The notes under the pieces are model-generated. The model did not search any database. It had not been told where the DNA came from and was given only the letters and a program-made list of their open reading frames with translations. From a virus: 27,209 nt of DNA. Position 1 is the first letter of the stretch. Each line of letters begins with the position of its first letter. The position numbers and the translations under genes are program-made. This document shows, in pieces, positions 4,701 to 24,909 of the stretch. The stretch is from the IMG/VR virus record IMGVR_UViG_3300013093_000219, positions 1-27,209 of that record; one strand, written 5' to 3'.

Positions 4701-4731
4701 TATTAATGCAAATTTAATGAAAAAACTGCCT
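4701..4731 (-). promoter_or_regulatory. Putative late promoter A (AGGCA-N16-TGCATTAATA)
   Basis: Read on the minus strand, AGGCA is followed by exactly 16 nt and then TGCATTAATA. It is the most diverged upstream box of the five. By analogy with phage T4 late promoters the predicted +1 is the A at 4695, giving a leader of about 39 nt before the GT2-methyltransferase gene. The unit would read glycosylation genes, fibre 1 and the adhesin. Confidence 0.6.
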
Positions 4732-4737
4732 AGTTAT

Positions 4738-7554
4738 TTAATGTTTTTTATTTATTAATTCGTATAGTTCTCGAATTGCTTCAATAATTAACGGCGCAAA
4801 TTTTTCGTATCGTACGGTTAAATATTGTTCATCAATGGGTGCTGGCGCAACAATTTCAGGCAATACTGCTTGTGTTTTTTGTGCTGACACACCAACTTCT
4901 TTTTGAACTGTATAACCTAATGCTTGCGCTGTTTCGTTAGCTTCGTAATAAAATCCTTCTAATGATAACAGCTTTTCTAAAGCGTTCTCAATTCTACCTA
5001 ATCTTGTTTTTAAACGGTCATCAGAATAGTACGCTGTTATGTTATTTGTAGCGCGAATTTCACCAGCTGTGCCTGATGCTGCGGTACCGACACCTAAACT
5101 GTTTACCTGAGCATTTGAACTTGTTGTAAATGCGCCCGAATATCCACTATATCCAGAATAGCCAGACGTTCCTGTAGATCCATTAGTGCCGCTGTATCCA
5201 GAATAGCCAGACGTTCCTGTAGATCCATTAGTTCCGTTAGTACCGCTGTATCCAGAATAGCCAGACGTTCCTGTAGATCCATTAGTTCCGCTGTATCCAG
5301 AATAGCCAGACGTTCCAGAAATTCCTGCGTCAGTAATTGTCCACGCTGTAAATGTGCCTGAACCTGCGGTGTATAGTACGTTTACAGTTAAAGCTGTGCC
5401 GCTAAAAGCAGTAATATTACCTTCCATGTAACTGGTTGGTGTTGTGGTGTAATAAACACGAACGTATTGGCCTACCGCAAATGCTGTCTGTGTTGGTGAC
5501 GATAAATTGGTTGTAAATGATTTAGAACCGGTACCAATGGTAACAGATGTAGCTGAAGTTAATCCATAGTAACCAATACCACTATAGCCAGAAAAACCAG
5601 ATATACCACTATATCCGGAATATCCAGATATGCCGGAACCACTGTAACCCGAATAACCAGATATACCAGATGATCCTGTTGCGCCACTAATACCAGAAAA
5701 TCCTGAATATCCACTTACACCCGAGCCGCTATATCCAGAAAAACCAGATATACCACTAAATCCAGAATAACCAGATATGCCACTAAACCCCGAATAACCA
5801 GAATATCCAGATATACCAGATGATCCTGTTGCGCCACTAATACCACTAAATCCTGAATATCCCGATACACCAATACCACTATAGCCAGAAAAACCGGATA
5901 TGCCACTATATCCGGAATACCCAGATATACCAGAACCACTGTAGCCCGATATACCACTAAACCCTGAATAGCCTGATACACCAGAGCCACTATACCCGGA
6001 AAATCCTGAATAGCCGCTTATACCAGAGTAACCAGATTGGCCAATTACACCGGAATATCCTGATTTACCGCTGTAACCAGAGTAACCCGAAAAACCAGAG
6101 AACCCACTTACGCCGTTAACAACACCTAAAATAACGGGTTCGTTATTTGGTATGTTGGTTGTTCCAGTGCCCAATGATTTTATTAGGGTTACTGGATAGT
6201 TCCAATAGCTGGTTGATGTGCTTGGATTTGTGTTGGTTGGTGCACCAGTAATTTGCCAAACTTGATAATTATCACTATTAGCTTGGTCTTGAATAATAAA
6301 TTCTTGCGTTTGTGTCAGCTGTGCTAAATAAATATCTATATCAATACCTAACGTTGTTAGATGAGATACGCTTACAATTGTTGCACTAGTTTGTGTGGCG
6401 TTGTTCCATAATAAGTACCCGTCACCAGGATATCCTGTTGTTGCTGTTGTGTTTGCCTTATATTGGAATGCTACTGTAGATGTTCCTTGAGCTCCAGAGT
6501 ACCCACTGTACCCAGATATGCCACTGTAGCCTGATATGCCACTATAACCAGATATGCCACTGTAGCCTGAATATCCTGATATGCCACTATAACCAGATAT
6601 GCCACTATAACCAGATATGCCGCTAAATCCAGATAATCCTGAACCACTATAGCCAGATATACCACTATAACCAGATATGCCGCTAAACCCAGATATACCG
6701 CTGTAGCCGGATATACCACTCCAGCCACTGTAGCCAGAGTAACCAGACTGGCCAACGGCGCCAGAGTAGCCAGATATGCCGCTAAATCCCGAGTAGCCAG
6801 ATAATCCTGAGCCACTGTATCCAGAAATTCCTGAATACCCGCTAAAGCCACTGTAGCCGGATAGCCCACTCCATCCACTATATCCGGAATATCCAGATTG
6901 GCCAACAGCGCCGGAGTACCCAGATATGCCACTAAATCCAGATAATCCTGAACCGCTATACCCTGAAAATCCACTTGTTCCACTATATCCGGATATGCCG
7001 CTGTATCCGGATATACCTGAGTATCCACTCCAGCCAGAGTAACCGGATACTCCAGAACCACTATAACCAGATATACCCGATCCACTGTAGCCTGATATGC
7101 CACTAAAACCTGAATACCCTGATATGCCTGAATATCCTGATTGGCCGCTATAGCCTGATATACCACTAAACCCGGAGTATCCACTATAGCCAGATACGCC
7201 GCTGTAACCAGATGGTCCTTGACCACTAAACCCAGAATATCCTGAGTAGCCGGAGTATCCAGATAATCCTAATCCACTAAACCCTGAATAGCCAGAGTAT
7301 CCAGACAGGCCCGAGTATCCAGACGAGCCGGATATTGGACCAACAACCTCAGTTGATCCGTCGCTATAATAAATAATTAAATCGCCATTAGATGGACTGT
7401 AGGCGATGTTGGTAATTAATTTACCCGGCGAGGCGGCGTTGGCAATCTGTGATACAGATGCTTGCTTAGTAACACCGTTTTGTACTACTACAGTTTGCTC
7501 ATTTCCAGTGAGGGAAGTGGCAACTGGTAGTTGCGTTATTGGTTGATTGGCCAT
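4738..7554 (-). CDS. Giant collagen-like tail fibre with C-terminal S74 chaperone
   Basis: This 938-aa fibre is built of alternating stalks and globules. It has an N-terminal head (about 1-75), Gly-aromatic-Ser stalk 1 (about 78-358), a globule (about 360-475), stalk 2 (about 480-660), a globule (about 661-744), stalk 3 (about 745-808), a short linker, and a C-terminal S74 / endosialidase-type intramolecular chaperone (about 842-938). The S74 hallmarks are SDDRLK near 843, GVSAQKTQAVLPEIV, and YEKFAPLIIEAIREL before the end. Known S74 domains trimerise the fibre and then cleave themselves off just before the SD motif. Pro is almost absent and there is no Lys in the stalks, which is unusual for collagen. 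The ribosome-binding site is weak; the start follows the upstream stop by 5 nt. Confidence 0.85.
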   Translation of the reverse strand: MANQPITQLPVATSLTGNEQTVVVQNGVTKQASVSQIANAASPGKLITNIAYSPSNGDLIIYYSDGSTEVVGPISGSSGYSGLSGYSGYSGFSGLGLSGYSGYSGYSGFSGQGPSGYSGVSGYSGYSGFSGISGYSGQSGYSGISGYSGFSGISGYSGSGISGYSGSGVSGYSGWSGYSGISGYSGISGYSGTSGFSGYSGSGLSGFSGISGYSGAVGQSGYSGYSGWSGLSGYSGFSGYSGISGYSGSGLSGYSGFSGISGYSGAVGQSGYSGYSGWSGISGYSGISGFSGISGYSGISGYSGSGLSGFSGISGYSGISGYSGISGYSGYSGISGYSGISGYSGISGYSGYSGAQGTSTVAFQYKANTTATTGYPGDGYLLWNNATQTSATIVSVSHLTTLGIDIDIYLAQLTQTQEFIIQDQANSDNYQVWQITGAPTNTNPSTSTSYWNYPVTLIKSLGTGTTNIPNNEPVILGVVNGVSGFSGFSGYSGYSGKSGYSGVIGQSGYSGISGYSGFSGYSGSGVSGYSGFSGISGYSGSGISGYSGYSGISGFSGYSGIGVSGYSGFSGISGATGSSGISGYSGYSGFSGISGYSGFSGISGFSGYSGSGVSGYSGFSGISGATGSSGISGYSGYSGSGISGYSGYSGISGFSGYSGIGYYGLTSATSVTIGTGSKSFTTNLSSPTQTAFAVGQYVRVYYTTTPTSYMEGNITAFSGTALTVNVLYTAGSGTFTAWTITDAGISGTSGYSGYSGTNGSTGTSGYSGYSGTNGTNGSTGTSGYSGYSGTNGSTGTSGYSGYSGYSGAFTTSSNAQVNSLGVGTAASGTAGEIRATNNITAYYSDDRLKTRLGRIENALEKLLSLEGFYYEANETAQALGYTVQKEVGVSAQKTQAVLPEIVAPAPIDEQYLTVRYEKFAPLIIEAIRELYELINKKH
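5131..5318 (-). repeat. Collagen-like stalk 3 repeat of fibre 2
   Basis: Near-identical units encode GTSGYSGYSGTNGST, repeated three times. The DNA copies are almost identical, which suggests recent unit duplication by slippage or recombination. Confidence 0.8.
5571..6117 (-). repeat. Collagen-like stalk 2 repeat of fibre 2
   Basis: Nine-base periodic Gly-X-Ser codons include two near-copies of a larger unit containing SGATGSSGISGYSG (around 5640-5690 and 5800-5860), so higher-order duplication is superimposed on the triplet repeat. Confidence 0.8.
6480..7325 (-). repeat. Collagen-like stalk 1 repeat of fibre 2
   Basis: This is the longest stalk, about 280 residues of Gly-Tyr/Phe/Ile-Ser. 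Larger units containing GAVGQSGYSGYSGWSG occur twice (around 6750 and 6895). Trp replaces Tyr at several X positions. Confidence 0.85.
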
Positions 7555-7559
7555 TTATT

Positions 7560-8174
7560 TTATGTGTAAGTAAACCCACCGTGATTGGTGCCAGTTCCAA
7601 ATGCAGATAACACAACAATGTCAACCAATCCTGTTGTTACATACGCCGGCGTAACTGCTGTTATCTCTGTTGAATTAACAATAATAAAACTAGCTGCGTT
7701 TACACCGCCAAATTTAAGATTAGTGACATTAGTAAAGTTTGCGCCCGTAACAACCACGTTAGTACCACCTGCTTTTGGCCCGGTGTTTGGTGTGCAGTTA
7801 TAAATATATGGGTTTAAATTAGTTGTTGTTGGTACTACGTTACTGGCGGTATCCAAATTACCTTGTGACGCAGAAGCTGGTGGCACACCCTCAATTAAAA
7901 CTGAGTTGCCGTTATAAAATCCACTCTGTGTTAATATTTCATTTGGTACAAGCGCTACAGATACGTCAGGTCTTGGAAATCTTAATGCAATGTTTTCAGT
8001 TTGACGTGCTGGTAAACGCCATGGATCGTACTGATCTAAATCGTCCTTGCACACCCGCATACCCGGAAAATTCGGGTCCGGCATTAAATCGACGTAGGCA
8101 AACTTTCTATTGCAGCGGTCACAGACCGCTACAGATAGAACAGTGTTTCCCGTGGTGTCAATGTAAACAGGCAT
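7560..8174 (-). CDS. Structural protein with N-terminal Cys motif and C-terminal IPT/TIG domain
   Basis: The 204-aa product begins with a possible metal-binding knuckle, CDRC at 18-21 with a further Cys at 42. No clear fourth Cys or His ligand is visible. Residues about 122-204 form an immunoglobulin-like IPT/TIG domain: the hallmark GPKAGGTNVVVTGANF, then a VTNLKFGG strand, and ITAVTPA near the end. TIG domains occur in phage tail and neck decoration proteins and bind carbohydrate or protein. AAAGGC precedes the ATG. It lies between a structural unknown and the large fibre, so a neck, tail or fibre-attachment role is plausible but not shown. Confidence 0.6.
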   Translation of the reverse strand: MPVYIDTTGNTVLSVAVCDRCNRKFAYVDLMPDPNFPGMRVCKDDLDQYDPWRLPARQTENIALRFPRPDVSVALVPNEILTQSGFYNGNSVLIEGVPPASASQGNLDTASNVVPTTTNLNPYIYNCTPNTGPKAGGTNVVVTGANFTNVTNLKFGGVNAASFIIVNSTEITAVTPAYVTTGLVDIVVLSAFGTGTNHGGFTYT

Positions 8175-8184
8175 TTAATTGCCT

Positions 8185-8985
8185 TTAAGCTGATTGGCCG
8201 TCTAACTTAATCAGTTTTCCGGTAATAATAACTCCTGCCGCAATAGTCCCAGTACTTGTAACTAATTGCCATTGAATGTCTGATTTTTGGGTATAAACAA
8301 AGGGGTCAGATGATCTATTTGCTGTATATATTGACACAAACGGCTGTTGCAAAACATTTAATTGAACATTGTTTATGTTGTTAATAACCTGTACTTTATA
8401 GGTGATAATTGTACTACCTGTGTAACTATTAGAGGTATTGACCTCAGCTAAATCTAAATAAAACGAGTATCCATTTGGCACAGTATAAATTGTACTTTGT
8501 GATTTACCCACTCCAGTGTTAATTTGGGCCACAATGTTTGCACTTTGTTTAACTGTGATTACACCCTGGTTAGTTTTAAATCCTGTACCGCCAGACATCA
8601 TAATTAAACTATTAATACGCAAATAGCTATTAACCGTTGTCACCCCGGTTGTGCCGTTTAAAAAAATGGTTTCCGAAATTGGGTTGAAGTTTGAGTCTAA
8701 TCCATTAATTAGAATAGAAGCTGCGGTATTATCATTTGCAGATGTGCTTACAACTGTCATGGTAGACGCAGATGTTGGGTATGTATACGTTGTTGCATTT
8801 TCCCAAACAGGAATAAACGTTGTTGTAATTGCTGATTGATATCCAAAAATACTAACGGTTTGGTGCCCGGCAATTTGATTACGTGCAACTTGAAGATCAA
8901 ATGGCTCATACGCACCCTGTACGGATACGGATGGCATGACTGCGGGTTGTTGTATTACTAAATTTGATACTAAGTTTGAGGCCAT
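8185..8985 (-). CDS. Probable virion structural protein, unknown family
   Basis: I do not recognise this 266-aa protein. It is Thr/Ser/Asn/Ile-rich, with a beta-strand-like alternating pattern throughout, no Cys, no signal peptide and no membrane segment, as expected of a tail or head-completion protein. AAGGAAA precedes the ATG at 8985. It lies in the promoter B unit between the 176-aa and 204-aa structural genes. A tail or neck component is inferred from composition and position only. Confidence 0.55.
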   Translation of the reverse strand: MASNLVSNLVIQQPAVMPSVSVQGAYEPFDLQVARNQIAGHQTVSIFGYQSAITTTFIPVWENATTYTYPTSASTMTVVSTSANDNTAASILINGLDSNFNPISETIFLNGTTGVTTVNSYLRINSLIMMSGGTGFKTNQGVITVKQSANIVAQINTGVGKSQSTIYTVPNGYSFYLDLAEVNTSNSYTGSTIITYKVQVINNINNVQLNVLQQPFVSIYTANRSSDPFVYTQKSDIQWQLVTSTGTIAAGVIITGKLIKLDGQSA

Positions 8986-9036
8986 AATTAATTTCCTTAT
9001 AAGTTAAAATAGGGGGCGAACCCCCTAGGCAATTAA

Positions 9037-9567
9037 TTAGCTATTTACATAGCCTTGGCCTACGTTAGTAATAGAGCCGTCGTAGTTACGTGCTGTGTAA
9101 GTGATATCAAATACACCAGCCAATGTACCAGTTACGCCTGAAGTTGTGCCAACAGTATAAGTTACAGTTGCGTCGCTTGTTCCAACGTTTGCTAACAATG
9201 TTGCAACAGCTGCGGTAGAAGTAAACACAATAGGAATTACTCCGCCAGTTGTCGTTGGGGTGATTGTTCCGACTGCTGTGCCGTTAACTGCAACGGTGAT
9301 AACCATACCAGTAAATGCTGATGGGGCTGTTGTTTCGTATAAACGCACGTTGCTGATAATTGCGCCTGCTGGGATAACAACTGGGTCCAAGGAAGTTGAT
9401 GCATTACCTGTGCCGTAAGTTGTAATTAGTCCGGCAGCATTTACGCCAGAGAATGAGTTTTGTTGTGATGCGGATACTGCACCGCTGTTATCAGGAGCAA
9501 TAACGCCGTTATTTGTTGGGTTATTGTATTTGTATACACGGATTGGTTGATTAAATGTTACTGACAT
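9037..9567 (-). CDS. Probable virion structural protein, unknown family
   Basis: This 176-aa, Thr/Val/Gly-rich, beta-predicted protein has no Cys and almost no Lys. A central stretch VIPAGAIISNVRLYETT suggests a jelly-roll or Ig-like decoration fold, but I cannot name a family. It is the first gene after the capsid terminator and is read from late-promoter motif B through a structured leader of about 94 nt. AGGAAA lies 9 nt before the ATG. It could be a head-decoration or tail protein made in high amounts. Confidence 0.55.
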   Translation of the reverse strand: MSVTFNQPIRVYKYNNPTNNGVIAPDNSGAVSASQQNSFSGVNAAGLITTYGTGNASTSLDPVVIPAGAIISNVRLYETTAPSAFTGMVITVAVNGTAVGTITPTTTGGVIPIVFTSTAAVATLLANVGTSDATVTYTVGTTSGVTGTLAGVFDITYTARNYDGSITNVGQGYVNS

Positions 9568-9661
9568 TTTGATTGTTTCCTATCAAGAGTTTATAGCCCC
9601 ACTCAGTCGCTTGATCGTAGCCTCGGGAAGTGACGAGGCCCTGTTGAGGGCGAATCTTCCT
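9568..9661 (-). promoter_or_regulatory. Structured 5' leader of promoter B transcript
   Basis: On the predicted transcript from +1 at 9661 there are two adjoining hairpins: arms GCCCT / AGGGC with a 4-nt loop (9638-9651) and arms GCCTCG / CGAGGC with an 8-nt loop (9620-9639). They share two bases, so they compete or stack. There is no U-run after them, so they do not look like a terminator. A weak 4-bp stem (9587-9604) follows, then AGGAAA and the ATG. Confidence 0.45.
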
Positions 9662-9666
9662 ATACT

Positions 9667-9697
9667 TATTAATGCAAACAAATTAATAAAAGCGCCC
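9667..9697 (-). promoter_or_regulatory. Putative late promoter B (GGGCG-N16-TGCATTAATA)
   Basis: This is a perfect match to the bipartite motif on the minus strand, in the 139-nt gap (9568-9706) between the 176-aa structural gene and the capsid terminator. Predicted +1 is an A at 9661. It would drive the structural genes and the large fibre down to 4738. Confidence 0.7.
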
Positions 9698-9705
9698 TAA
9701 AAAGC

Positions 9706-9734
9706 AAAAAACCCACCTTGTGGGTGGGTTTTTT
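9706..9734 (-). terminator. Bidirectional intrinsic terminator after the major capsid gene
   Basis: A perfect 12-bp inverted repeat (AAAAAACCCACC / GGTGGGTTTTTT) has a 5-nt loop. It lies 17 nt past the capsid stop. On the minus strand it gives a GC stem followed by a U-run, and it reads as a terminator in both directions. Promoter B follows immediately, so the capsid and tail units are separated. Confidence 0.85.
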
Positions 9735-9750
9735 GTTAATGCAGGATATA

Positions 9751-10668
9751 TTACAGACCAGCGGTACCGTAAATGTTACGCGCATCGTGCCAACCTGTAG
9801 CATAACGCTCAGTGGCTTTGTAGCGCATAGAATCAGTCTCGAAGTCACCTTCCATGGATTTCTCCATTGGGCGACGCATAACGAGCATGAGTCCATTTTC
9901 AGCATCAGTCTGAATCCACCAGGCTTTGCTTGAGCTCAAACGAGTAACAACGTGTGCGCCTTTTGGCAACATACCTGTTGACTTGATTGGGTTCAAATCG
10001 TTATCAGCTGTACCAGAACGCAGTACAGACTTAAGAATAACTTCAGCTTGGAATTCTAATGCTGGAGGTACAACTAATTGCTCTGCTTTGAGGCGGATAC
10101 GCTTACCGTTGTTGTCAACAGCAGAACGGATCTGAATCAATATCTGCTCAACAGAGGTTTGGCTCAAAGAAGCTGCGGTAGATAACTGGTTAGAGTATGA
10201 TGCACCGTTAGCGATTGGGTGAGCTGTGTTGATCAACGTTACGCCGTCACCGCCAACATATCCGGATGTGAACGCAAAGTTCAAAATGTTTGCACATAAT
10301 GTTTCTTTGGTTTCAATCATAGACTGGGCTAAGTGTTTAGCAAAAGTTGAACCGATACGGATGTGATCGCCGTCTTCCATCAACACTTTGGTCATAGCAT
10401 ATGCTAAACCATAGATTTGATAGATAAAACGAGTGATGTACAATGTACCACCCTGGTCATAGCTGACAGGAGTTCCGTCAGGCATTGCAGGAGCAGCATT
10501 CATACCGTATAACATTACTTCTTCGTGGTAGTTGCGTGGAATACCTTGGATCTGTTCTACAAATCCTTTCCACTCGTCATCACGTTGTTCATATACACCA
10601 TCAAAGACTTCGTTGATAATCGGCTCGACTACCGCACGAAAGTCTGTACTACGCATTGGGGTTGCCAT
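9751..10668 (-). CDS. Major capsid protein (HK97-fold type)
   Basis: The 305-aa length and the layout fit an HK97-fold capsid, possibly close to the Mu gpT group. It has an N-terminal helix-rich arm with repeated acidic residues (IINEVFDGVYEQRDDEW), a central ETKETLCANILNFAFTSGYVGGDG followed by LINTAHPIANG, and a beta-rich C-terminal part with LVVPPALEFQAEVILKS and a closing WHDARNIYGTAGL. The gene lies directly after scaffold-like and small structural genes and directly before a strong terminator, as expected for an abundant product. AAAGGAACT precedes the ATG. No protease gene is evident nearby. The family link is by eye. Confidence 0.7.
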   Translation of the reverse strand: MATPMRSTDFRAVVEPIINEVFDGVYEQRDDEWKGFVEQIQGIPRNYHEEVMLYGMNAAPAMPDGTPVSYDQGGTLYITRFIYQIYGLAYAMTKVLMEDGDHIRIGSTFAKHLAQSMIETKETLCANILNFAFTSGYVGGDGVTLINTAHPIANGASYSNQLSTAASLSQTSVEQILIQIRSAVDNNGKRIRLKAEQLVVPPALEFQAEVILKSVLRSGTADNDLNPIKSTGMLPKGAHVVTRLSSSKAWWIQTDAENGLMLVMRRPMEKSMEGDFETDSMRYKATERYATGWHDARNIYGTAGL

Positions 10669-10690
10669 GTTTAGTTCCTTTCGTTGTTAA

Positions 10691-11353
10691 TTAGACCGAT
10701 ACCGACGCAGCGGCAAATTGGTTGTTACAGATTTGAACCTGAACGATTGTGTAAGCGTCGCCCCACTGGTTTGTGTTACCAGCTGGGTATGCTACTTCAC
10801 GTCCGAGTCCAACCACACGTACTTGGCCTTGGTTACCAGAACCAACAGCAGTTGCTAACAACGCTGTAGTAGAGAAACCTGCACCACCATTACCGATAGC
10901 GTAGCCATCAGTTACAGTAGAACCAGTTGTTGTGTCAAAGTTATATTCAGTGCCGATAGCCGCAGAAGTTGCTGAACCATTAACTTGAGCTTCGTAAACA
11001 AGTGCTGGATCTGTGAAGATCCAGAAAAGCAAGTTTGTAGAGGCATCAAGGGTTGTTTTAGCAGCATATTTAGCTACAGAACGACGACCGTCTGAGTTTG
11101 TGTATTCGATACCATCAAATACACCATAAACCTTACCACTTGAAGCGGTTTGGTTAGCGATTGTTAATTGACCAGAAGATGTGATCGCTACAGGTTGAAA
11201 CTGCCAGAAAGACTGGCCAGATGACAACGAGTAAGGAGCACTGTAGCTCGTACCTGGGACAAATGTGTTAGTACCAACGAATGGTACTGCACGATCTAAT
11301 CCACTAGGATGATATACAGGTTTCAGGCCAAAGGGTTGAAATGTTGCAGACAT
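10691..11353 (-). CDS. Small head structural protein, possibly decoration protein
   Basis: This 220-aa protein is Ser/Thr/Gly/Ala-rich and beta-predicted. It starts SATFQPFGLKPVYHPSG and contains KVYGVFDGIEYTNSDGRRSVAKY near residues 74-94. It sits between the 183-aa unknown and the capsid gene, the usual place for a head-decoration or capsid-stabilising protein. AAAGGAAAC precedes the ATG. I do not recognise a named family; assignment rests on composition and synteny. Confidence 0.5.
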   Translation of the reverse strand: MSATFQPFGLKPVYHPSGLDRAVPFVGTNTFVPGTSYSAPYSLSSGQSFWQFQPVAITSSGQLTIANQTASSGKVYGVFDGIEYTNSDGRRSVAKYAAKTTLDASTNLLFWIFTDPALVYEAQVNGSATSAAIGTEYNFDTTTGSTVTDGYAIGNGGAGFSTTALLATAVGSGNQGQVRVVGLGREVAYPAGNTNQWGDAYTIVQVQICNNQFAAASVSV

Positions 11354-11378
11354 TTAAGTTTCCTTTGTTTTGAAGTTG

Positions 11379-11930
11379 TTATTGGAAACGAATATTACTA
11401 TTCGCTTTTTGAGCTTCCTTTTCCATTTCCAAGATACCGCCTTCAAGAATTGATCTACCGCCTTTGCCTTCTTGGGCTTGGCCCCGAACGGTTGCAGTAA
11501 TATTACGTTGGTGCTCGAGGGGATCCTCAAGGTGCAACATTTTCATCACTTCTTGATAAACGTCTTCCGGTAATTTGAAAAGAACCATCTCATTACATGA
11601 AACACAGCCTTCAAACTTGCCCGAGTTCATCTTACCTAGTCCTTCAAAGCTCTTCCCTAATTCACTAGCTTTGACTGGTTCATAACCCAATGCCATACGT
11701 TTGTCGATACTGTCATACGTGTTAGTTGTTGACAACCAGCACAGATGCATCCCTGGAATTGCGTCCTTTGGGATATCGGGCAGTGCACTATTTGCCCATT
11801 TATCACGGAACGCGTCAAGGCGTTCCCGGTGTGCGTTGGAAGATGCATCTAACGACGCTCTCTCCTTAACTTCTTGTACACGATCAGCTAAACGATCGTC
11901 TAAATCTCTTTTTATTCTTGTGTTTGCCAT
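11379..11930 (-). CDS. Conserved-looking head-module protein of unknown function
   Basis: This 183-aa protein has a charged helical N-terminus (residues 1-50, rich in Arg, Asp, Lys), then PGMHLCWLSTTNTYDSIDKR and MALGYEPVKASELG, then CVSCNE near residue 110 and a helical C-terminus. The 'readable by residue, then YEPV' pattern is common in phage head-gene neighbours, but the function is not known to me. AAAGGATAA precedes the ATG. It lies between the scaffold-like gene and the capsid genes. Confidence 0.5.
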   Translation of the reverse strand: MANTRIKRDLDDRLADRVQEVKERASLDASSNAHRERLDAFRDKWANSALPDIPKDAIPGMHLCWLSTTNTYDSIDKRMALGYEPVKASELGKSFEGLGKMNSGKFEGCVSCNEMVLFKLPEDVYQEVMKMLHLEDPLEHQRNITATVRGQAQEGKGGRSILEGGILEMEKEAQKANSNIRFQ

Positions 11931-11935
11931 TTTAT

Positions 11936-12904: not shown

Positions 12905-12923
12905 ACTTTTTCCCAAAAGTTAA

Positions 12924-13361
12924 TTAATCGACAAACGCTTTCATTTTTTGTGCGTGACCAAAACTCTTAATACGTGAAATAATTTCGCGTGCTTGTAGTG
13001 TAATAAACACCACGGGCGCTCCGTCATCTCCTGCATCAATCACACAACGATCTCCACCGTACTTAATGGTTCTTACCAAGTCACCTTCTTTACACCATGG
13101 GCCTTCGATCCAATTGCTTAAATCGTCTAGGTTACGGTATGCTAACGGTCCCACTTGAATTACCTTGGCAACGGTTTCGTTAAACTTAATCGTTTGCTGG
13201 GTTTCCTCTACTAAAACAATTCCACCCTTACTCTTTGTTTTTGCACGTCTTAGCTGAACCAAAACACGGTCGCCTGCAACGTCAATACCATGATCTACAA
13301 CGGGGAAACATTCTTCCTCTGAGCGCAGATCTGGCTCGTCTTTCTGTTTTAAATCAATCAC
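12924..13361 (-). CDS. Phage-encoded GroES-like co-chaperonin
   Basis: This 145-aa Cpn10-family protein has GDRVLVQLRRAKTKSKGGIVL at residues 30-50, which matches the GroES barrel strand and mobile loop; the GGIVL tripeptide region binds GroEL in the family. NETVAKVIQVG at 61-71, KEGDLVRT at 91-98 and a C-terminal REIISRI complete the barrel. It exceeds bacterial GroES (about 97 aa) because of an N-terminal extension of about 28 residues, an insertion at about 72-90 and a short C-terminal tail. T4 gp31 is the known precedent: it replaces GroES so that GroEL can fold a capsid protein. The gene is in the capsid unit, three genes before the capsid. The GTG start is supported by AAGGAG 9 nt upstream. 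Confidence 0.85.
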   Translation of the reverse strand: MIDLKQKDEPDLRSEEECFPVVDHGIDVAGDRVLVQLRRAKTKSKGGIVLVEETQQTIKFNETVAKVIQVGPLAYRNLDDLSNWIEGPWCKEGDLVRTIKYGGDRCVIDAGDDGAPVVFITLQAREIISRIKSFGHAQKMKAFVD

Positions 13362-13390
13362 TTTACAGTGCTCCTTATACCTTACGGTAC

Positions 13391-13582
13391 TTAAAAATCC
13401 TCTTCGTCTTCGCTAAGGATCTGGTTAATAATATCCAATGTATCTTGGATACCTTGCTTTTGTCCCACAAAACGTTGGTACGTCGCGTAGTCGTGGACAT
13501 TAACACCTGACGAAATAGCTAGTGTTAAATCAGTATCAGCACTTTTCAAGCGCTTAATTATTTCGGAAACAATATCTTTCAT
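13391..13582 (-). CDS. Small head-module protein, predicted leaderless mRNA
   Basis: The 63-aa helical protein (MKDIVSEIIKRLKSADTD, then VGQKQGIQDTLDIINQIL and an acidic DEEDF end) is the first gene of the unit read from late promoter C. There is no Shine-Dalgarno sequence: TGCATTAATA is followed by five bases and then the ATG. It resembles small head or portal-linked proteins of many phages, but I do not recognise a family. Confidence 0.65.
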   Translation of the reverse strand: MKDIVSEIIKRLKSADTDLTLAISSGVNVHDYATYQRFVGQKQGIQDTLDIINQILSEDEEDF

Positions 13583-13587
13583 ATTTG

Positions 13588-13618
13588 TATTAATGCATAA
13601 AGGCGAAAAAATCCGCCC
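13588..13618 (-). promoter_or_regulatory. Putative late promoter C (GGGCG-N16-TGCATTAATA)
   Basis: This is a perfect match to the bipartite motif. The predicted +1 coincides with the A of the ATG at 13582. The 16-nt spacer also contains CGCC, which can pair with GGCG of the upstream box, giving a small hairpin. It would drive the co-chaperonin, scaffold and capsid unit ending at the terminator at 9706-9734. Confidence 0.75.
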
Positions 13619-13626
13619 TTAATAAA

Positions 13627-13851
13627 TCAATAAAAATTACCGCCACCAATTTCATTGAGGTTTTTATCTGGTCCAACTTTGCTTGGTTTTGTAACCTTAG
13701 CTTGCTTGGCACCAATTTTCCAATTGTTGTCGCGGTGTGATCCAGACGGTCCGTTTTCTACCTTGGTCACGCCTGTGTCGCCGGCCGCTGATGCTTCTGC
13801 TTTGCCTGTCATTTGATAGGTTTTTCTAAAACCCATTTGATCTTTTGCCAT
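13627..13851 (-). CDS. Small basic protein of unknown function
   Basis: This 74-aa, Lys/Gly-rich, probably disordered protein (GFRKTYQMTGKAEAS, VTKVENGPSGSHRDNNWK, GGGNFY C-terminus) directly follows the portal gene. AAGGAC precedes the ATG. No domain is recognisable. The sequence suggests an internal head or portal-associated protein, but that is inference from position. Confidence 0.55.
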   Translation of the reverse strand: MAKDQMGFRKTYQMTGKAEASAAGDTGVTKVENGPSGSHRDNNWKIGAKQAKVTKPSKVGPDKNLNEIGGGNFY

Positions 13852-13852
13852 T

Positions 13853-16744
13853 TTACTGTCCTTCTTCTTGTGGTGGTTGTTGTTGTTGCTGCTGTTGTTC
13901 TAATGCGCCCTGTTGCTGTTGATCGTTTTGCTGCAACTGTTGTGCGTGCTGTTGATCGTTTTGCTGCAACTGTTGCTGATGTTGTTGTGCTGCAATGGCT
14001 GCCTGTGATTGATACTGTTGGTCTTGCTGGGCTTGCTGGTTTACCATGTCGGCTTGTTGCTGAAAATTCTGTTGCTCAATTGCTAAACCATGCTGCCTAA
14101 TATCTGCATTGGCGTCATTAATTGCTTCCATTGCGGATATGTTTTGTTCATGCTCCAACTGCGCCTGTTGTTGGTCCATCTGAGCGCCGGTTGTAATTTG
14201 TGCAATACGCTCACGCGCGGAGTTATTAATGTTTGCCATCGCAATGTCAGTAGCGTTGCGTTGGTTATCAATACTTGTCTGTGTCTGGTACTTAGCCGCC
14301 AGCTCTTGAACTTTTTGCTGCAGTTCAGCAACCTTAAGCTGATAATCTTGTGTAGCTTGTTGTACCTGTGACTGCATCTTGGCCTGAAACTCTTGTGACT
14401 TACGTTCTGTCTCGGCCATTTGAGTTTTAAGCAACACCTGAGCCGTTGGATCTGCATTCATCGCTTGTTGCTGTTGCGCTTGGTGCATCTGTTGGACCTT
14501 TTGTACCAGCGCCATAATGTCTTGCATGTACGGCTGCATGATCTGTTGCGACTCTTGGTCCACAATCTTAGAACCAACTGCCAACGCCTGTTGTGATTCC
14601 CAGTCCAGTGTCTTCTCTTCGTGTAAGTCAAGAATGTCTTTACCGCCGGACACTTTTGCCACAATATTGCGCATTGACTGGAGATAAAACAACATTAAGT
14701 GTTGTTTGATGTGGTCTAAACACACCGGTGCAAATGTAGGTCCAATGACCGGACTACCACCATATACCGGATTCTTGGCGTACTCCAGGTGAACCTGAAT
14801 GTGTGCCATGTGATCTTGGTCGGGGTAGGCCGCAGCCGGTCTGCCCATCGTCATAGAAACATTTTCTAACGCTGGGTTGGATTCTTTAGAGCCCTTTGGA
14901 TTTGGTAATATCTGTTCCGCTTCTGGGATCTTTAATTGATCAACTAAGCGACTATATACGGCGCGCAGGTCAAACATTCCAGGGGGTGCAGACGTTGCCA
15001 TCTGTAACAAGGCTTGATTTTGTGCGAGGCGCTGTGTCTCTGAGAATATATTTGGGTCAGATACAGGCCTTACGTCGGTAAAGTATGCAAAGTCACGAAC
15101 TTCAATTTCTTCGCCGGACTGGTTGTCCATCTCGGCTAGGTACCAGTTATTGATGCGTGAGATAATCTTTAATGACTTGGCTTGCGAACGGTGCAAACGT
15201 GCGTGGATTGAGGAGAAAACCTTAGCGCCCTGCTCAATCAATGCCTGTGTTGTGCCGACGGGCATGTTGTTGTTTGCTTCGCCAATCTTTTCTTCTGCTG
15301 TAGTAACCACGCCCTTAGCAGCGTCGGTTAGCCATCCTAATAGGTTAAACAGTACGCTTGACGGTTGATTGAATGGCAACGGCATCGCCAGCTTGCGTAC
15401 GTCATCTACGCCAGGTGCACCTTCAATTTCTACTACCTGCGTGGGTTCGATCCGATCAGACTGCCCACCAATGCGTCCGCCCTTGAGCTTAAGCATTGTC
15501 TGACTGTTGTTAATATGTGCAGCGTCAAGGAGAGCACGCAGTGCGCCAGTAAGAGCGGCACTAAGACCACCGATAAGGTGAGGTAAACCAATAGCGTAAG
15601 CGCCACGCCAAGGAATAAATTTAAACTCGACGTACCAGTCCAGTTTTTCAAGTTTTTCATCGCCGTCCGCCCAGTTTCTATATAACCCAATTACCTTACT
15701 TGTTGTTTCGTCAATCGTTAAGATGTAAGGCGCACGTTTTCCGTTTGTCTTGTCATCGTCATCAAGACGCATAAAGCATGTAATCTCATAAATACGACGC
15801 AAACCATCAATGTTCTTGCCAGGTAAGTCTCTACCCTCAATCTTGTTGTTTGCCTTTTCAGACTGCGTCATGTCGTTAATCGGCGCGTCAGACGTATACT
15901 CTGAGTCAATGTCAACGTAGATGCCCTGCTCAATACGTTGTAAGAACGTATCTTCTGTAATGTCCTGTACTTCTGTTACACGTTGTGCTGTGTAAAAATT
16001 TGTTGACGCGTACGGCAACAAAATGTTATCAATTGGGATCCATTCGCAAATAGGGCGTGCCTGTTCGCTGTCCCAGCGCCACTTTAAAAACTGTGAACCA
16101 CCGAGTGGTAGCTGTGTTAACAACTGCTCCATCTCGTCGCGGTACTCAGGAATTTGTTCACTAAGCTGCCAATTTAAAAAGTTTGCCTTACGTTCCGCAA
16201 CCTCTAACTTTGATTTATCTGCCGTACCGCGGATGTTTGTTTTAACAATTCCGTCTGGTGGCAATAGTTCTTTTGCTGCACTGGCCGCAAAGTCTACGCA
16301 TGATTCAGCCATAACTGGGTGAACCACTTTAGAAGCTCCGTCAAAAACAGCACCACCAGGAGCGTCTTTACCAAGGCCTGTGCGACGAAGGCCCTCCTCA
16401 TATTGCTTGTCCCGTGTTTTTCTTGCCTCTTGGTCATTGTCTATAAAATCCAGGTAGTCAACAGCTAGTTGGTTTAATGTACCCGAGTCAAAAACTTCAG
16501 CAAGGTTTTGGTAAAACTTTGGGCTTTCTTTTGGTCCTTTTGTTTTTTCCAGGTTAACAATTACAGAACCGTCTTCCAGTTCAATGATCTCCCCTTCGGC
16601 TTCACCTTCATCTAAGCCTAAAGAATCTTCAAGGCTTTGCACTTCGTCTTCTTGAATTTCACCTTCTTCAATGTCTTTATCCCGCTTAGGGTTTAAGGAT
16701 GGCAAGTTGCCGCCTTGTTGCATTGGTATTTGTGGATTTGCCAT
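13853..16744 (-). CDS. Portal protein with long Gln-rich C-terminal tail
   Basis: This 963-aa protein is the candidate portal. It has an acidic N-terminal arm (about 1-75), then a long body with DNDQEARKTRDKQYEEGLRR, the SKVVHPVMAESCVDFAAS stretch, an LPPDG motif and QFLKWRWDSEQARPICEWIP (around 215), which resembles the P22-like podovirus portal core. Residues about 700-963 are a Gln/Ala helix and then an almost pure Gln tail, comparable with long barrel helices of P22-type portals. The gene is next to terL and the head genes. Its start is 3 nt after the previous stop, with only a weak ribosome-binding site (AAAGAATGAAATAA). The assignment is good but not certain. Confidence 0.75.
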   Translation of the reverse strand: MANPQIPMQQGGNLPSLNPKRDKDIEEGEIQEDEVQSLEDSLGLDEGEAEGEIIELEDGSVIVNLEKTKGPKESPKFYQNLAEVFDSGTLNQLAVDYLDFIDNDQEARKTRDKQYEEGLRRTGLGKDAPGGAVFDGASKVVHPVMAESCVDFAASAAKELLPPDGIVKTNIRGTADKSKLEVAERKANFLNWQLSEQIPEYRDEMEQLLTQLPLGGSQFLKWRWDSEQARPICEWIPIDNILLPYASTNFYTAQRVTEVQDITEDTFLQRIEQGIYVDIDSEYTSDAPINDMTQSEKANNKIEGRDLPGKNIDGLRRIYEITCFMRLDDDDKTNGKRAPYILTIDETTSKVIGLYRNWADGDEKLEKLDWYVEFKFIPWRGAYAIGLPHLIGGLSAALTGALRALLDAAHINNSQTMLKLKGGRIGGQSDRIEPTQVVEIEGAPGVDDVRKLAMPLPFNQPSSVLFNLLGWLTDAAKGVVTTAEEKIGEANNNMPVGTTQALIEQGAKVFSSIHARLHRSQAKSLKIISRINNWYLAEMDNQSGEEIEVRDFAYFTDVRPVSDPNIFSETQRLAQNQALLQMATSAPPGMFDLRAVYSRLVDQLKIPEAEQILPNPKGSKESNPALENVSMTMGRPAAAYPDQDHMAHIQVHLEYAKNPVYGGSPVIGPTFAPVCLDHIKQHLMLFYLQSMRNIVAKVSGGKDILDLHEEKTLDWESQQALAVGSKIVDQESQQIMQPYMQDIMALVQKVQQMHQAQQQQAMNADPTAQVLLKTQMAETERKSQEFQAKMQSQVQQATQDYQLKVAELQQKVQELAAKYQTQTSIDNQRNATDIAMANINNSARERIAQITTGAQMDQQQAQLEHEQNISAMEAINDANADIRQHGLAIEQQNFQQQADMVNQQAQQDQQYQSQAAIAAQQHQQQLQQNDQQHAQQLQQNDQQQQGALEQQQQQQQPPQEEGQ
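13915..13975 (-). repeat. Tandem repeat in portal Gln-rich tail
   Basis: A 28-nt unit occurs twice, at 13915-13942 and 13948-13975, with a period of 33 nt (11 codons). It encodes a repeated QQLQQNDQQ. Exact DNA identity suggests recent slippage. Confidence 0.75.
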
Positions 16745-17224
16745 TTATTTCATTCTTTCGTGCATAGCTTTTAACTGTTCATCTTCGCCAGTGTTTAAGT
16801 CCCTAGCATGAAACGCTAATATTCTAGGAAGATTCCAAGAAGATGCAACGTCGTAAGCATTCTGTGCTGCCTCTGGGTAGTTTTGGTTTAGGAGAGCTTT
16901 TCCTATATCATAAATTGGTTCGCCAAACATCGCTCCATGCAATAATGTTGTCCCTGCGTATTTTTTAATTGGTTCTGGAATTGCATTTTTAATTGTGTCC
17001 AGTATAGAGTCATTCACTGGCTTTGACGAAAGTACCGCACTACCGCCAGCAAAATGTTGGATCAACGGATGGTCGTGTGCTAAATGTTCTGTGTGCACGG
17101 GTTTGCCATTAATCATCAACTCCACCTTCATCTGTTCCGGAGAGACAGATCGTCCCTCAGCGTAGCTTGGTAAGCCAGCCTGTTGCATGAGCATCTCTTG
17201 TGGTGTCTTAATTGGGTTTATCAT
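16745..17224 (-). CDS. Unknown protein between terL and portal, predicted leaderless mRNA
   Basis: I do not recognise this 159-aa protein. It has an N-terminal region with KVELMINGKPVHTEHLAHDHP near residues 33-53, then GGSAVLSSKPVNDS, and a helical half with LHGAMFGEPIYDIGKALLNQ near 94-113. I chose the ATG at 17224 rather than an in-frame TTG at 17242, because the intervening bases are the late-promoter motif D. The ATG lies 5 nt after TGCATTAATA. GGATT is at best a weak ribosome-binding site. It ends 3 nt before the portal start. Confidence 0.6.
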   Translation of the reverse strand: MINPIKTPQEMLMQQAGLPSYAEGRSVSPEQMKVELMINGKPVHTEHLAHDHPLIQHFAGGSAVLSSKPVNDSILDTIKNAIPEPIKKYAGTTLLHGAMFGEPIYDIGKALLNQNYPEAAQNAYDVASSWNLPRILAFHARDLNTGEDEQLKAMHERMK

Positions 17225-17229
17225 AATCC

Positions 17230-17260
17230 TATTAATGCACAAATAGTTTAAATTACGCCC
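17230..17260 (-). promoter_or_regulatory. Putative late promoter D (GGGCG-N16-TGCATTAATA)
   Basis: This is a perfect bipartite motif on the minus strand. Its upstream box abuts the terL stop codon. The predicted +1 is the A of the ATG at 17224. It would drive the 159-aa gene, portal and 74-aa gene. Confidence 0.75.
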
Positions 17261-18705
17261 TACTGAGCGTACGGGTTAGAAAACTTTCTATTTAACTGGT
17301 CGTCAATGTACGAGTAGTCCCTAGCCGGCAGTGGGTCTAGCTGGATCCATCCGGAGTCCCTAAGAACTCGTAGCGCCTGTGTAAGTGAGTCTACGTAGTC
17401 ATCGTGACCCTTAGCTTCTGGGAACGAACACACCTGCCTAATGAACCGTTTGGCCCAGTTAGCAAACTCGCCCTTTTGAGTTGGCTCCTCTGGCACAAAC
17501 ACCTTACCCTTGGCTACCAACGGTGCCACAATGTTTAGTCGCTGCACCTTGTCCGCGCGTCCGGGGTTGTACCCCCTTACCGGCAATCCAGAACCCTGCA
17601 GTTCTTGAATGAGTGATATACCTGCTGACTTATCTTCCATGAGGATAAGGTCGGCCTTTCGGCCCTTACCAAACTCATTATCAGCGCCGTAGACCACCTC
17701 CTTAAAGTCATTAATCACCTTACGCCTGAGCTCTGGGTACGCTAGGTGTGCGTCCCATGAGTCTAGCAAAATGATCGCGGTGCCGGCGTCTTCTTGTTCA
17801 AATACTCCCCAAACCGTACACGCTGTCGGATCGTTAACCGTCTTTTCGCTAGTAGCGGGATCGTATGACACGATCACGTATTCTAGCACCGGCGTTGGTT
17901 TTTTGGCTGGCCACATGCGAAAATGTTTACGCTTGATAATGCCTGACGACTCTGGATCCAGGATTTCTCCGTAGATCTCTTGCTTTCCAAGGTCTGACCC
18001 ATCGTAGGCTTCGAGCTGCTTAAAAAATGTTTCAGAGAGGTTGGCCTTGTTGTCGTACGATGACGCATTGGCCACGTACACGTCGCCACCAATCTTACCC
18101 TCGTTCAAGTCAACAATAATCTCTAACGGCTTGGGGGTGGTAGTAATAATCTGCTGTACGCGCTCAATACGGGGGTCTACAAGACGCAAAGTAAACTGCG
18201 CTTGATCGTAGGCATCATCTATGTATTCAAACGCAGCCAGCTCGTCAAACCACGCGCCGTGGTATTGTTTTCCCCGGTATCGTTCTGGCTCGGATCCAGG
18301 GATTCCCTGTATGAGTGAGCCGTTAATTAACGTGATCTCAAGCAGCGACTTGTTGTAGTCCCTAATGATTGACCTTGGTAATATGTTCAGTAGTCCCGAG
18401 TCTCCCTCAAAACACGTTGCGCGGATGTCGTTTGTTGTTGGTGCCGTTACCAGCCAACGGGTCTTGTCAAACTTCCAGGCACGTTCGCCAATCCAATGGG
18501 ACGCGGTCCATGTCTTACCCGCACCCCGTCCTGCCAACATGAGGAACGTATCGTACTCGTTGTCTTCCGGTTCGCGTTGGTGTGGCAGCACGGTCATTTG
18601 GAACTTAACCTGCCATATTGCTGCCTCTACCTCTGGCTTCGGTATGTCCTTGTACTGTTTTGCAAATTCGGCTAGAATTTTTTCTTGTGTTGCGTTTAAC
18701 GGCAT
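17260..18705 (-). CDS. terL: Terminase large subunit (DNA packaging ATPase-nuclease)
   Basis: The 481-aa protein is complete. The ATPase half has Walker A LAGRGAGKT at 57-65, Walker B AWFDE at 151-155 with the catalytic Glu, and coupling motif TTTP at 188-191. The RNase H-like nuclease half has Asp 282 in VSYDPA, an acidic residue in LMEDKSAG near 365, and GHDDYVDS near 445. It pumps DNA into the prohead and makes the headful or site-specific cut. The start overlaps the last codons of the intein-like gene by 10 nt, and its GAGGG ribosome-binding site lies inside that gene. No small terminase subunit was recognised nearby. Confidence 0.95.
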   Translation of the reverse strand: MPLNATQEKILAEFAKQYKDIPKPEVEAAIWQVKFQMTVLPHQREPEDNEYDTFLMLAGRGAGKTWTASHWIGERAWKFDKTRWLVTAPTTNDIRATCFEGDSGLLNILPRSIIRDYNKSLLEITLINGSLIQGIPGSEPERYRGKQYHGAWFDELAAFEYIDDAYDQAQFTLRLVDPRIERVQQIITTTPKPLEIIVDLNEGKIGGDVYVANASSYDNKANLSETFFKQLEAYDGSDLGKQEIYGEILDPESSGIIKRKHFRMWPAKKPTPVLEYVIVSYDPATSEKTVNDPTACTVWGVFEQEDAGTAIILLDSWDAHLAYPELRRKVINDFKEVVYGADNEFGKGRKADLILMEDKSAGISLIQELQGSGLPVRGYNPGRADKVQRLNIVAPLVAKGKVFVPEEPTQKGEFANWAKRFIRQVCSFPEAKGHDDYVDSLTQALRVLRDSGWIQLDPLPARDYSYIDDQLNRKFSNPYAQ

Positions 18706-19685
18706 GTTATAAATCCCTCATTCACTAAAAACGAGCCGTCCGGCCCATCGGTTTCAATGTGTACACATTGTTGTGTTGCGATATTTTCTATTTCTGTGAT
18801 GTACCTACGCGTTTGGTGAATACGAATCGGTGGCGACTCTTGGTTCTCGCACAGTTTGTAACGACTCTTAAAACTTAGTGTGTAGTATTTTATGTAGTCC
18901 CTATAATGCAGCGACGTCTTGCAACCAATTGACTCAACCAGCGACTGTATCTGCCTAATCTCGTTCCAATTGGTGCTGGCTATCCTAAAATGGTCGCGTG
19001 GCTTCTTGTATTGGTTTATTTTTGCGTTAATTATGCCACTTAGTAACTCAATTCGCTGTTCTTCGCTGGCTAGTAGGTAATTGTTTGGTATTTGGTTTGG
19101 TATAAAGGGTATTAATTGCGACTCTATCGTTGGATACACGCTAAAAATGGTTGCTCGGCCTTTTCTTTTGACTGTTTTTGTAATTTCGTAGCCATGATCT
19201 TTGAATTTTTGTATTACTTCTTTGTAGTTTAAGTCTTTTACGGAAAAAATATTAGCTCGCAACCTATTCTTGAACCAGAATCCAAAGATAAACGGTGGTA
19301 CCGGTAGGTCTTGGTGTGGAAATTTAAGCGGTTTACACGTTGGAATAGAGAAAAATAATTTATTTCCTTTATACTTCAATGGTTTATTGATTAATTCTGA
19401 CAACGCCGACAGTACAAGTGGGCGTTTGAACTCACGCTTGCCCTTGTGCTCGAGTGCACGGATTCTGTACTTAGGTGTTTCCAGTAAAAAATTAAGCGCG
19501 CCGTTGCCGCTGATAGTCATCAGGTCACTTAGGTGCACCTTGTAGCAGTTTGACTCAAAATGCTGAACCAATATTACCCTAACCGGGTTACCGTTTTGGT
19601 CAAACACATAGTCTCCTACCTCTACCTTATCTGCACGCTTCCAATAATCAAGCGTTAGTATCTTTTCGTTCGCTGTAATTGCCAT
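18696..19685 (-). CDS. Free-standing intein-like Hint/LAGLIDADG protein, likely inactive for splicing
   Basis: The 329-aa gene has its own ATG and stop. The N-terminus AITANEKILT followed by ADKVEVGDYVFDQNGNPVRV (18-37) is intein block A, with Ala at the position of the splicing Cys1. CYKVHLSDLMTISGNGALNF (47-66) fits block B without its usual His. FIFGFWFKN (132-140) and LLSGIINAK (214-222) fit two LAGLIDADG helices with the catalytic Asp replaced by Asn and Lys. VHIETDGPDGSFLVNEGFIT (308-327) fits blocks F and G, but the closing His-Asn is Cys-Arg, followed by the stop. Upstream the frame is closed by TAG four codons before the ATG. It overlaps the 100-aa gene by 38 nt and terL by 10 nt. 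Motif alignment is by eye. Confidence 0.75.
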   Translation of the reverse strand: MAITANEKILTLDYWKRADKVEVGDYVFDQNGNPVRVILVQHFESNCYKVHLSDLMTISGNGALNFLLETPKYRIRALEHKGKREFKRPLVLSALSELINKPLKYKGNKLFFSIPTCKPLKFPHQDLPVPPFIFGFWFKNRLRANIFSVKDLNYKEVIQKFKDHGYEITKTVKRKGRATIFSVYPTIESQLIPFIPNQIPNNYLLASEEQRIELLSGIINAKINQYKKPRDHFRIASTNWNEIRQIQSLVESIGCKTSLHYRDYIKYYTLSFKSRYKLCENQESPPIRIHQTRRYITEIENIATQQCVHIETDGPDGSFLVNEGFITCR

Positions 19686-19950
19686 GTATATTTTCTAAGA
19701 CCCAAAAATCTAGGAAACGCCCTAACGGCGTTCTAATCTTATTTTGAATTGAGTTGGGTAGGCGCCGCACGTCCATGAATGAATTGACGGCCATTCTAAA
19801 CTTAATGTACGCCAGGGTATCTTTGTCAAACAATTCGGCTGGTGCGTCTACTGTGTAGAAATGGTACGCAGTACAAACAATAACCTGAAATCCCGAGACT
19901 TCTTGTTGTGGGCTTTCCAGTACCCCTTTGATTTGATATGCATATTTCAT
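19648..19950 (-). CDS. First gene of late unit E, unknown function, predicted leaderless mRNA
   Basis: I do not recognise this 100-aa protein. It begins MKYAYQIKGVLESP and contains FQVIVCTAYHFYTVDAPAEL and an Arg-rich helix-like LPNSIQNKIRTPLGRFLDFW. I placed the start at the ATG at 19950, because the two in-frame upstream candidates lie inside promoter motif E. No Shine-Dalgarno sequence is visible; the ATG is 5 nt after TGTATTAATA. It sits where many phages keep a small terminase subunit, but I see no helix-turn-helix evidence. Its 3' end overlaps the Hint-like gene by 38 nt. Confidence 0.6.
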   Translation of the reverse strand: MKYAYQIKGVLESPQQEVSGFQVIVCTAYHFYTVDAPAELFDKDTLAYIKFRMAVNSFMDVRRLPNSIQNKIRTPLGRFLDFWVLENIHGNYSERKDTNA

Positions 19951-19955
19951 GTCCA

Positions 19956-19986
19956 TATTAATACACACATTTTAAAAATACCGCCA
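19956..19986 (-). promoter_or_regulatory. Putative late promoter E (TGGCG-N16-TGTATTAATA)
   Basis: This is the bipartite motif with one change in each box. The predicted +1 is the A of the ATG at 19950. It is the rightmost leftward promoter, at the edge of the control region, and would drive the 100-aa gene, the Hint-like gene and terL. Confidence 0.65.
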
Positions 19987-20287: not shown

Positions 20288-20405
20288 ATACAGGCAAAGG
20301 AGGGTATTGATAGTAAGTGCTTACATAGGCTAGGCGCCCTCCCTTACCTAGCCGTGCACCAACTTGGTGCATTAAGTAAGTTAGTACTCACTGGGGCGGT
20401 CTATG

Positions 20406-20523: not shown

Positions 20524-20533
20524 GCATTAACGT

Positions 20534-24655: not shown

Positions 24656-24909
24656 TCGACGAGTTAGGAAAAGTAAACCAAGCCATCGCAGAGTTGGAGT
24701 CAACAGCCCGTAAGTTAAAAGCCGAGTTGGTGGCTAGGGGTAAGGGGACGTACGCTGGCGCACAGTTTGTTGCGGAGGTTCAGGAGTACGACCGCGCCAA
24801 CATCAGCGCCACGTTGGTGCGTGAGTTGGCTGACAAGGATTTTATATCGAAGGTAACACAAATTCAGCACATTAACTCGGTGGTGGTTAAGATGCAGAAG
24901 TCGGCTTAA
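24643..24909 (+). CDS. Small coiled-coil protein
   Basis: I start at the ATG at 24643 with GGAGAG upstream; earlier in-frame starts lie inside the membrane-protein gene. The 88-aa product has an N-terminal coiled coil (VNQAIAELESTARKLKAEL) and then a beta part (FVAEVQEYDRANISATLV). This layout is frequent among phage small proteins of unknown function. Its stop overlaps the sigma-factor start (TAATG). Confidence 0.6.
   Translation: MFEIVDELGKVNQAIAELESTARKLKAELVARGKGTYAGAQFVAEVQEYDRANISATLVRELADKDFISKVTQIQHINSVVVKMQKSA

Follow-up and report, generated by a model that had tools for sequence, protein, structure and literature searches.

The late sigma factor of the Bacillus phage SPO1 consists of two proteins, gp33 and gp34. 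Of these, gp34 has been identified as the late sigma (PMC9429907). In phage T4, gp55 and gp33 have been described as a split sigma, and the late promoter is an 8-bp element to which recognition is confined, with no domain equivalent to sigma region 4 (PMC2988020). In the SigO-RsoA system of Bacillus subtilis, sigma regions 2 and 3 are located in one chain and region 4 in another (PMC10141391). Here we analyzed the virus record IMGVR_UViG_3300013093_000219 of IMG/VR, whose whole length of 27,209 bases is referred to as the window. It contains five minus-strand copies of GGCR-N16-TGYATTAATA in front of leftward genes, and a gene for a 191-residue phage sigma factor. These five repeated blocks are almost certainly the switches for the late genes of the phage, and comparison with related contigs suggests that they are probably promoters read by the host core RNA polymerase carrying a two-protein phage sigma.

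The sequence-only reading of this stretch had placed five bipartite sites on the minus strand and proposed that they are true promoters of unusual specificity. We found all five at those positions and on that strand (Table 1). Four of them contain TGCATTAATA and the one at 19956 contains TGTATTAATA, with the upstream box exactly 16 nucleotides away in every case: GGGCG for the boxes at 9667, 13588 and 17230, TGGCG at 19956 and AGGCA at 4701. The base six nucleotides past the box, the predicted +1, is A in all five, and a scan of both strands of the window revealed no further full copy, both as had been claimed. TGYATTAATA occurs five times compared with 0.46 expected in the shuffled window (none of 100 shuffles reached five), and the bipartite GGCR-N16-TGYATTAATA occurs five times, always on the minus strand, compared with 0.01 expected. 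The position-matrix scan that had been suggested as a check was performed with a 37-nucleotide matrix trained on 54 sites from relatives and none from the window. This matrix singled out the same five sites, which ranked first with scores of 24.9–39.6; elsewhere in the window no place scored above 4.5, and 100 mononucleotide shuffles yielded at most 16.5.

Relatives of the portal protein are found on at least 592 viral contig stretches, and 80 of these were retrieved for comparison. Judging from these contigs, the motif is common to a large family of uncultured (metagenomic) phages. In the closer relatives the motif is unchanged and occupies the corresponding operon positions; in more distant relatives TGCATTAGTN replaces TGYATTAATA, still 16 nucleotides behind GGGCG. 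In the related genomes the sites are located at the heads of late units and on the same strand as those units, and the long genomes contain about 6–9 copies each, on whichever strand carries the late units. Among 358 distinct box contexts from all collected loci, GGCG lies exactly 16 nucleotides upstream in 184 and at any other distance in at most 5. A GGC-type box 15, 16 or 17 nucleotides upstream is present at 201 sites, with 192 at 16. When the entire viral collection was scanned for spacings of 12–20 nucleotides, 81 further distinct sites emerged, 78 of which have the 16-nucleotide spacing. Loss of the spacing in relatives and many equally good copies elsewhere had been named as evidence against a promoter, and neither was observed. 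Within any one genome the −10 boxes are of a single type, defined by A, G or T at position 8 (per-genome box counts included overlapping matches, and only the box types were used). MW202545, Caulobacter phage RW and Roseobacter phage CRP-901 have homologous portals and terminases; no GGGCG-N16-TGCATTA was found in their whole records, nor was a relative of the sigma found in these three. A further −10 variant, GGGCG-N16-CGTATTAGTN, was observed on three contigs (L047, L062 and L078), with no sigma on those contigs.

The sites have the geometry of a sigma-70-type promoter, with two elements, the N16 spacing and a conserved A at the predicted start (201 sites). The −10 hexamer may be placed in two registers: as ATTAAT, which gives a canonical TGn, or as CATTAR, in which case the A at −11 is invariant and the spacer to GGGCGG measures 17 bp. 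The family consensus past the box reads N4-T-A-[G/T]-G, in which the T is conserved in 96% and the A in 98% of the N16 sites, and from this conservation and the geometry we infer that transcription starts at the A six bases past the box. An ATG begins at that A, exactly at offset 5 after the box, in 67 of the 201 sites, and no other offset among the first 40 exceeds 17 sites. All 67 frames are open throughout the tested stretch of 48 codons. A Shine-Dalgarno-like sequence was found at none of the 67, compared with 12 of 16 other late genes of the window. In the window the ATG coincides in frame with the predicted +1 at 13582, 17224 and 19950, and the position and ATG offset of P3 are identical in many relatives. 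If transcription starts at the predicted A, as the spacing indicates, the mRNAs of the ATG-coincident sites would be leaderless; late mRNAs are thus predicted to be leaderless at about one third of the family's promoters and at three of the five in the window.

The same features bear on whether the repeats could be sites bound by a repressor or by a packaging or replication protein, or sites of mRNA processing. Intergenic repeats can play such roles, and nothing specific points to them here, whereas the strand of the repeats agrees with that of the downstream genes, the ATG register is fixed at offset 5, the T-A-[G/T]-G start context is conserved and an intrinsic terminator is located immediately upstream of P2. 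We consider a function of this kind scarcely credible.

The early block of the window encodes the phage sigma factor, in which homology to the sigma-70 family was found in regions 2 and 3 (Pfam Sigma70_r2, 1.4e-6; Sigma70_r3, 9.6e-10), with region 1.2 just below the Pfam cut-off. The protein matches a PHROG sigma factor at 1.2e-31, and its family profile aligns with primary sigma factors over 172–174 positions (1e-34 for primary sigmas in the PDB; 8.6e-32 for rpoD by hhalign). Region 4 was not found in the chain, which stops just inside region 3.2; a weak match to region 4 (E 0.02) overlaps the helix-turn-helix of region 3. The orthologues in relatives are 47–77% identical and likewise end without region 4. 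When the sigmas of A-type and G-type genomes were aligned, 13 columns shared no residue between the two types. Six of these columns are located within the 20 residues of region 2.3/2.4 and seven in the 171 residues elsewhere (Fisher p 7e-4), the six corresponding to E. coli positions 423, 429, 432, 433, 438 and 440 (numbering checked against MG1655 rpoD). Another separating column is at position 386, which, from published structures, we take to lie close to the pocket of the base flipped at −7. This covariation and the co-occurrence of the gene with the motif indicate that the phage sigma very probably reads the late promoter motif. The proposal of a true promoter with unusual specificity is also supported by the conserved motif, spacing, orientation and operon position, by its absence in the three sigma-less relatives and by the sigma covariation.

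In many phages the late genes are transcribed with host sigma factors, and a host alternative sigma or a host activator might read the motif while the phage sigma serves other promoters. However, the motif and the phage sigma are jointly absent in the three relatives, sister lineages that differ in the −10 base also differ in region 2.3/2.4 of their phage sigmas, and no other repeated motif was seen at the late units, so that we regard a host reader as very unlikely. Multi-copy late promoters of strict consensus are also typical of phages with a single-subunit (T7- or N4-like) RNA polymerase. The promoter of T7 is about 23 bp long, and the present motif is longer, with a −35/−10-like spacing. 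A search of four long motif-bearing genomes gave no match to RNA_pol (PF00940), while the T7 positive control was found at 9.9e-110; a T7-like polymerase was rejected as a candidate, and we consider a single-subunit enzyme of either kind highly improbable.

With +1 at the A, GGGCG is placed at about −36 to −32, the usual site of sigma region 4. Since GGGCG is nearly invariant at the exact −35 geometry, something should read it. Our candidate is a protein of about 101 residues, conserved across the six longer genomes of the initial comparison (G002, G007, G011, G016, G019 and G026). Its gene is on the same strand as the sigma gene and, in the relatives, some 6–12 kb downstream of it; the distance is 6–10 kb in most loci that contain both and exceeds 10 kb in G005 and G007. 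No counterpart was found in the loci of MW202545, RW and CRP-901, and for isolated phages none was found among the 50,697 records of a phage collection. The C-terminal half of the protein, LPxKQxFVLEAFLDGLxYxDIxVTEKYWRYHFxKGxEFIKKEL, was modeled with high confidence as three helices, while the mean predicted local distance difference test score (pLDDT) of the whole chain is 74. Pfam Sigma70_r4_2 matches 16 of 41 family members, with a best E-value of 0.0057, and a PHROG sigma-factor family matches 10 of the 41. In Foldseek searches, the nearest named folds of the model are mostly sigma region 4, with E-values above 0.5 against the PDB. The model superimposes on domain 4 of SigW bound to −35 DNA over 51 columns at 2.0 Å, with a template modeling (TM) score of 0.72 by target; in a viral structure library it again falls near sigma region 4, behind one uncharacterized family member. 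In addition, several putative recognition-helix residues of the protein are invariant and GGGCG is nearly so, in contrast to the variable region 2 and −10 box. Two separate reading heads would produce such a combination of a frozen −35 pair and a varying −10 pair. From these data the protein is likely a sigma region 4 by identity. We are less firm on its role, in which it would, on balance, be a region-4-like partner of the sigma.

The alternative for this step is that the late promoters are phage-sigma promoters read by the region-4-less sigma alone or with another partner, and that the 101-residue protein does something else. The partner might be a host factor, the C-terminal domain of the alpha subunit, the 111-residue protein encoded next to the sigma, or a coactivator like T4 gp33 that does not read DNA. 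The sequence support for region 4 in the 101-residue protein is weak, the 111-residue open reading frame overlaps the end of the sigma gene and is conserved alongside it, and T4 late transcription works without reading of −35 DNA (PMC2988020). On the other hand, the near-invariant GGGCG at the −35 geometry needs a reader, and the 101-residue family has region-4-like fold neighbors and co-occurs with the sigma. The model of the 111-residue protein matches no DNA-binding fold, and we rejected this protein as the −35 reader; it is possibly an accessory factor. Overall, we consider this alternative unlikely, though less so than those discussed above.

Several observations weigh against a two-protein sigma with leaderless late genes. 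The covariation between sigma and box is confounded by shared ancestry, which inflates the column counts, and for this reason we use it as supporting evidence only. L202, which is of the T type, carries a region 2.4 resembling that of the G type. The G002 contig carries the motif and the 101-residue gene but lacks a sigma gene, for which its incompleteness is the probable reason. The profile of the 101-residue family gave no significant match to PDB sequences and none to region 4 of primary sigmas, and the region-4 claim is held lower because of these two comparisons. The 101-residue gene was not seen in the window, which ends too early; by analogy with the relatives, the gene of this phage would lie beyond the right end. 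Finally, in 10 of the 67 ATG-coincident sites, another possible start in the same frame, with a Shine-Dalgarno-like sequence, follows within 25 codons.

Taking the two-protein sigma as the working model, we propose the following sequence of events. From the position of its gene, the sigma would be made when the host polymerase transcribes the early genes. The sigma, probably together with the 101-residue protein, would then bind the host core and select GGGCG-N16-TGYATTAATA, as co-occurrence and covariation suggest. In this complex, the 191-residue sigma would recognize the extended −10 box TGYATTAATA, and the 101-residue protein, like a detached region 4, would contact GGGCG at about −35. Transcription would begin at the A six bases past the box, in line with the geometry and base conservation, and about one third of the late operons might be translated from a 5′-terminal AUG. 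The complete picture is a large family of uncultured phages whose sigma is split into two genes, whose −10 chain changes with the box while the −35 chain and GGGCG are frozen, and a third or so of whose late operons are leaderless; for this combination as a whole, we see the case as evenly balanced.

By analogy, this arrangement would work like the T4, SigO-RsoA and SPO1 systems. As in T4 (gp55, gp33 and gp45), a phage sigma-like protein would redirect the host core to a short −10-type late box, and CATTAATA matches the T4 box TATAAATA at six of eight positions, the two differences being those noted in the sequence-only reading. T4 has neither an upstream element nor a −35 reader, whereas the present phages have a near-invariant −35 GGGCG and a sigma with regions 1.2–3 that is close to primary sigma factors. 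The kinship with T4 late promoters hinted at in that reading found no support, the −35 element being no less conserved than the −10 box, and membership in the T4 class was rejected on the conserved GGGCG and the two box differences. SigO-RsoA is likewise a two-polypeptide sigma with chains of similar sizes (about 22 and 9 kDa), but it is a bacterial stress system and not a phage one. The likeness is one of architecture, and since region 4 of the phage chain is weakly supported, membership in the two-subunit kind is unproven. SPO1 shares late transcription by the host core with phage sigma-type protein(s); it belongs to an unrelated phage and host group, and its promoter consensus differs from the present motif. 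The records of RW, MW202545 and CRP-901 contain homologues of the terminase, portal, GroES-like and capsid genes, arranged in the same order, and differ in having no sigma, 101-residue protein or promoter motif. Among the searchable open-licence papers we found no description of the present system, and neither the built-in leaderless starts nor the probable separation of the sigma into two genes is a feature that we found reported there.

The sigma variants with their matching promoters (three −10 types and one −35 type) form a natural series for testing rules of sigma-DNA recognition. They also suggest a compact orthogonal expression system of one or two small proteins and a 37-bp promoter. 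If the late mRNAs are leaderless as predicted, these phages would be a test case for leaderless translation in infection. In addition, the motif allows late operons to be mapped by sequence alone on many unannotated phage contigs.

Three contigs show further features around the candidate partner. L208 (CAIPQU010000110.1), the only bacterial match, contains a 101-residue gene at 7666–7965 and a GGGCG-N16-TGCATTAGTA site at about 8684, and is binned in a metagenome-assembled genome of an uncultured beta-proteobacterium. This is a weak hint of beta-proteobacterial hosts, and as such binning is too weak, we leave the host unnamed. G007 has an extra, lineage-specific region-4-like protein about 1 kb upstream of the sigma (L122, about 10274–10822, plus strand). 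A 59-residue region-4-like open reading frame in G011 (L111, 17514–17691, minus strand) was found only there and was rejected as a general partner.

Table 1. Predicted late promoters and other features of the window (ORF, open reading frame; matrix, score with the matrix from relatives)
Feature	Coordinates	Strand	Details
Late promoter P1	4695..4731	−	AGGCA 4731-4727, N16, TGCATTAATA 4710-4701; predicted +1 A 4695; matrix 27.9; head of leftward unit with first ORF 4656-3433
Late promoter P2	9661..9697	−	GGGCG 9697-9693, N16, TGCATTAATA 9676-9667; predicted +1 A 9661; matrix 36.0; head of unit with first ORF 9567-9037; downstream of capsid gene
Late promoter P3	13582..13618	−	GGGCG 13618-13614, N16, TGCATTAATA 13597-13588; predicted +1 A 13582 is the A of ATG; matrix 39.6
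Late promoter P4	17224..17260	−	GGGCG 17260-17256, N16, TGCATTAATA 17239-17230; predicted +1 A 17224 is the A of ATG; matrix 34.4
Late promoter P5	19950..19986	−	TGGCG 19986-19982, N16, TGTATTAATA 19965-19956; predicted +1 A 19950 is the A of ATG; matrix 24.9; first late promoter, heads terminase unit
Intrinsic terminator	9705..9735	−	13-pair stem and T tail; strong; ends capsid unit, directly upstream of P2
Capsid	9751-10668	−	Late block
GroES-like	12924-13361	−	Late block
63-residue gene	13391..13582	−	ATG at predicted +1 of P3, predicted leaderless; followed by GroES-like and scaffold/capsid genes
Portal	13853-16744	−	Late block
Gene upstream of portal	16745..17224	−	Predicted leaderless start 17224; mechanical ORF start 17242 falls inside P4 box
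Terminase	17260-18705	−	Late block
First late gene	19648..19950	−	Predicted leaderless start 19950; orthologues in relatives
Phage sigma factor	24909..25484	+	191 residues; early block; regions 1.2, 2, 3 and start of 3.2
111-residue conserved protein	25474..25809	+	Overlaps end of sigma gene, also in relatives; matches no family or fold

The late genes are the leftward ones, which extend to about 19950, and many small early-type genes run rightward from about 21200. The window is the whole virus record and probably a genome fragment, because related contigs reach 57–68 kb. The GGGCG of P4 overlaps the stop region of the terminase gene. The late block also encodes collagen-like GYSG-repeat proteins, which are probably tail fibres. 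The first late gene and the large terminase flank a free-standing gene (18696–19685, minus strand) that matches a PHROG terminase family, has the look of an intein/Hint domain by eye and is conserved among the sigma-bearing relatives.

The early intergenic region contains an identical pair of 27-nucleotide sequences (20405–20431 and 20501–20527), each with the palindrome TATGTTAGTGTGTACTAACATA, and three copies of CTAGCAAGAATCGTGCCAG (20448–20471, 20534–20557 and 20575–20598); in a search of the relatives, these palindrome copies and repeats were not found in most. A longer element of about 130 nucleotides, with palindromic GTACTAGTAGTAC-type arms around an A/T-rich tract, has two copies in the window, one at the late/early divergence (19997–20130) and one after the sigma operon (26051–26184). 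It is present in many relatives, e.g. L122 (12944–13054), L115 (60–81 and 6061–6082) and L121 (4514 and 11319). Its role could be that of an origin, of a bidirectional terminator or of an early regulatory site.

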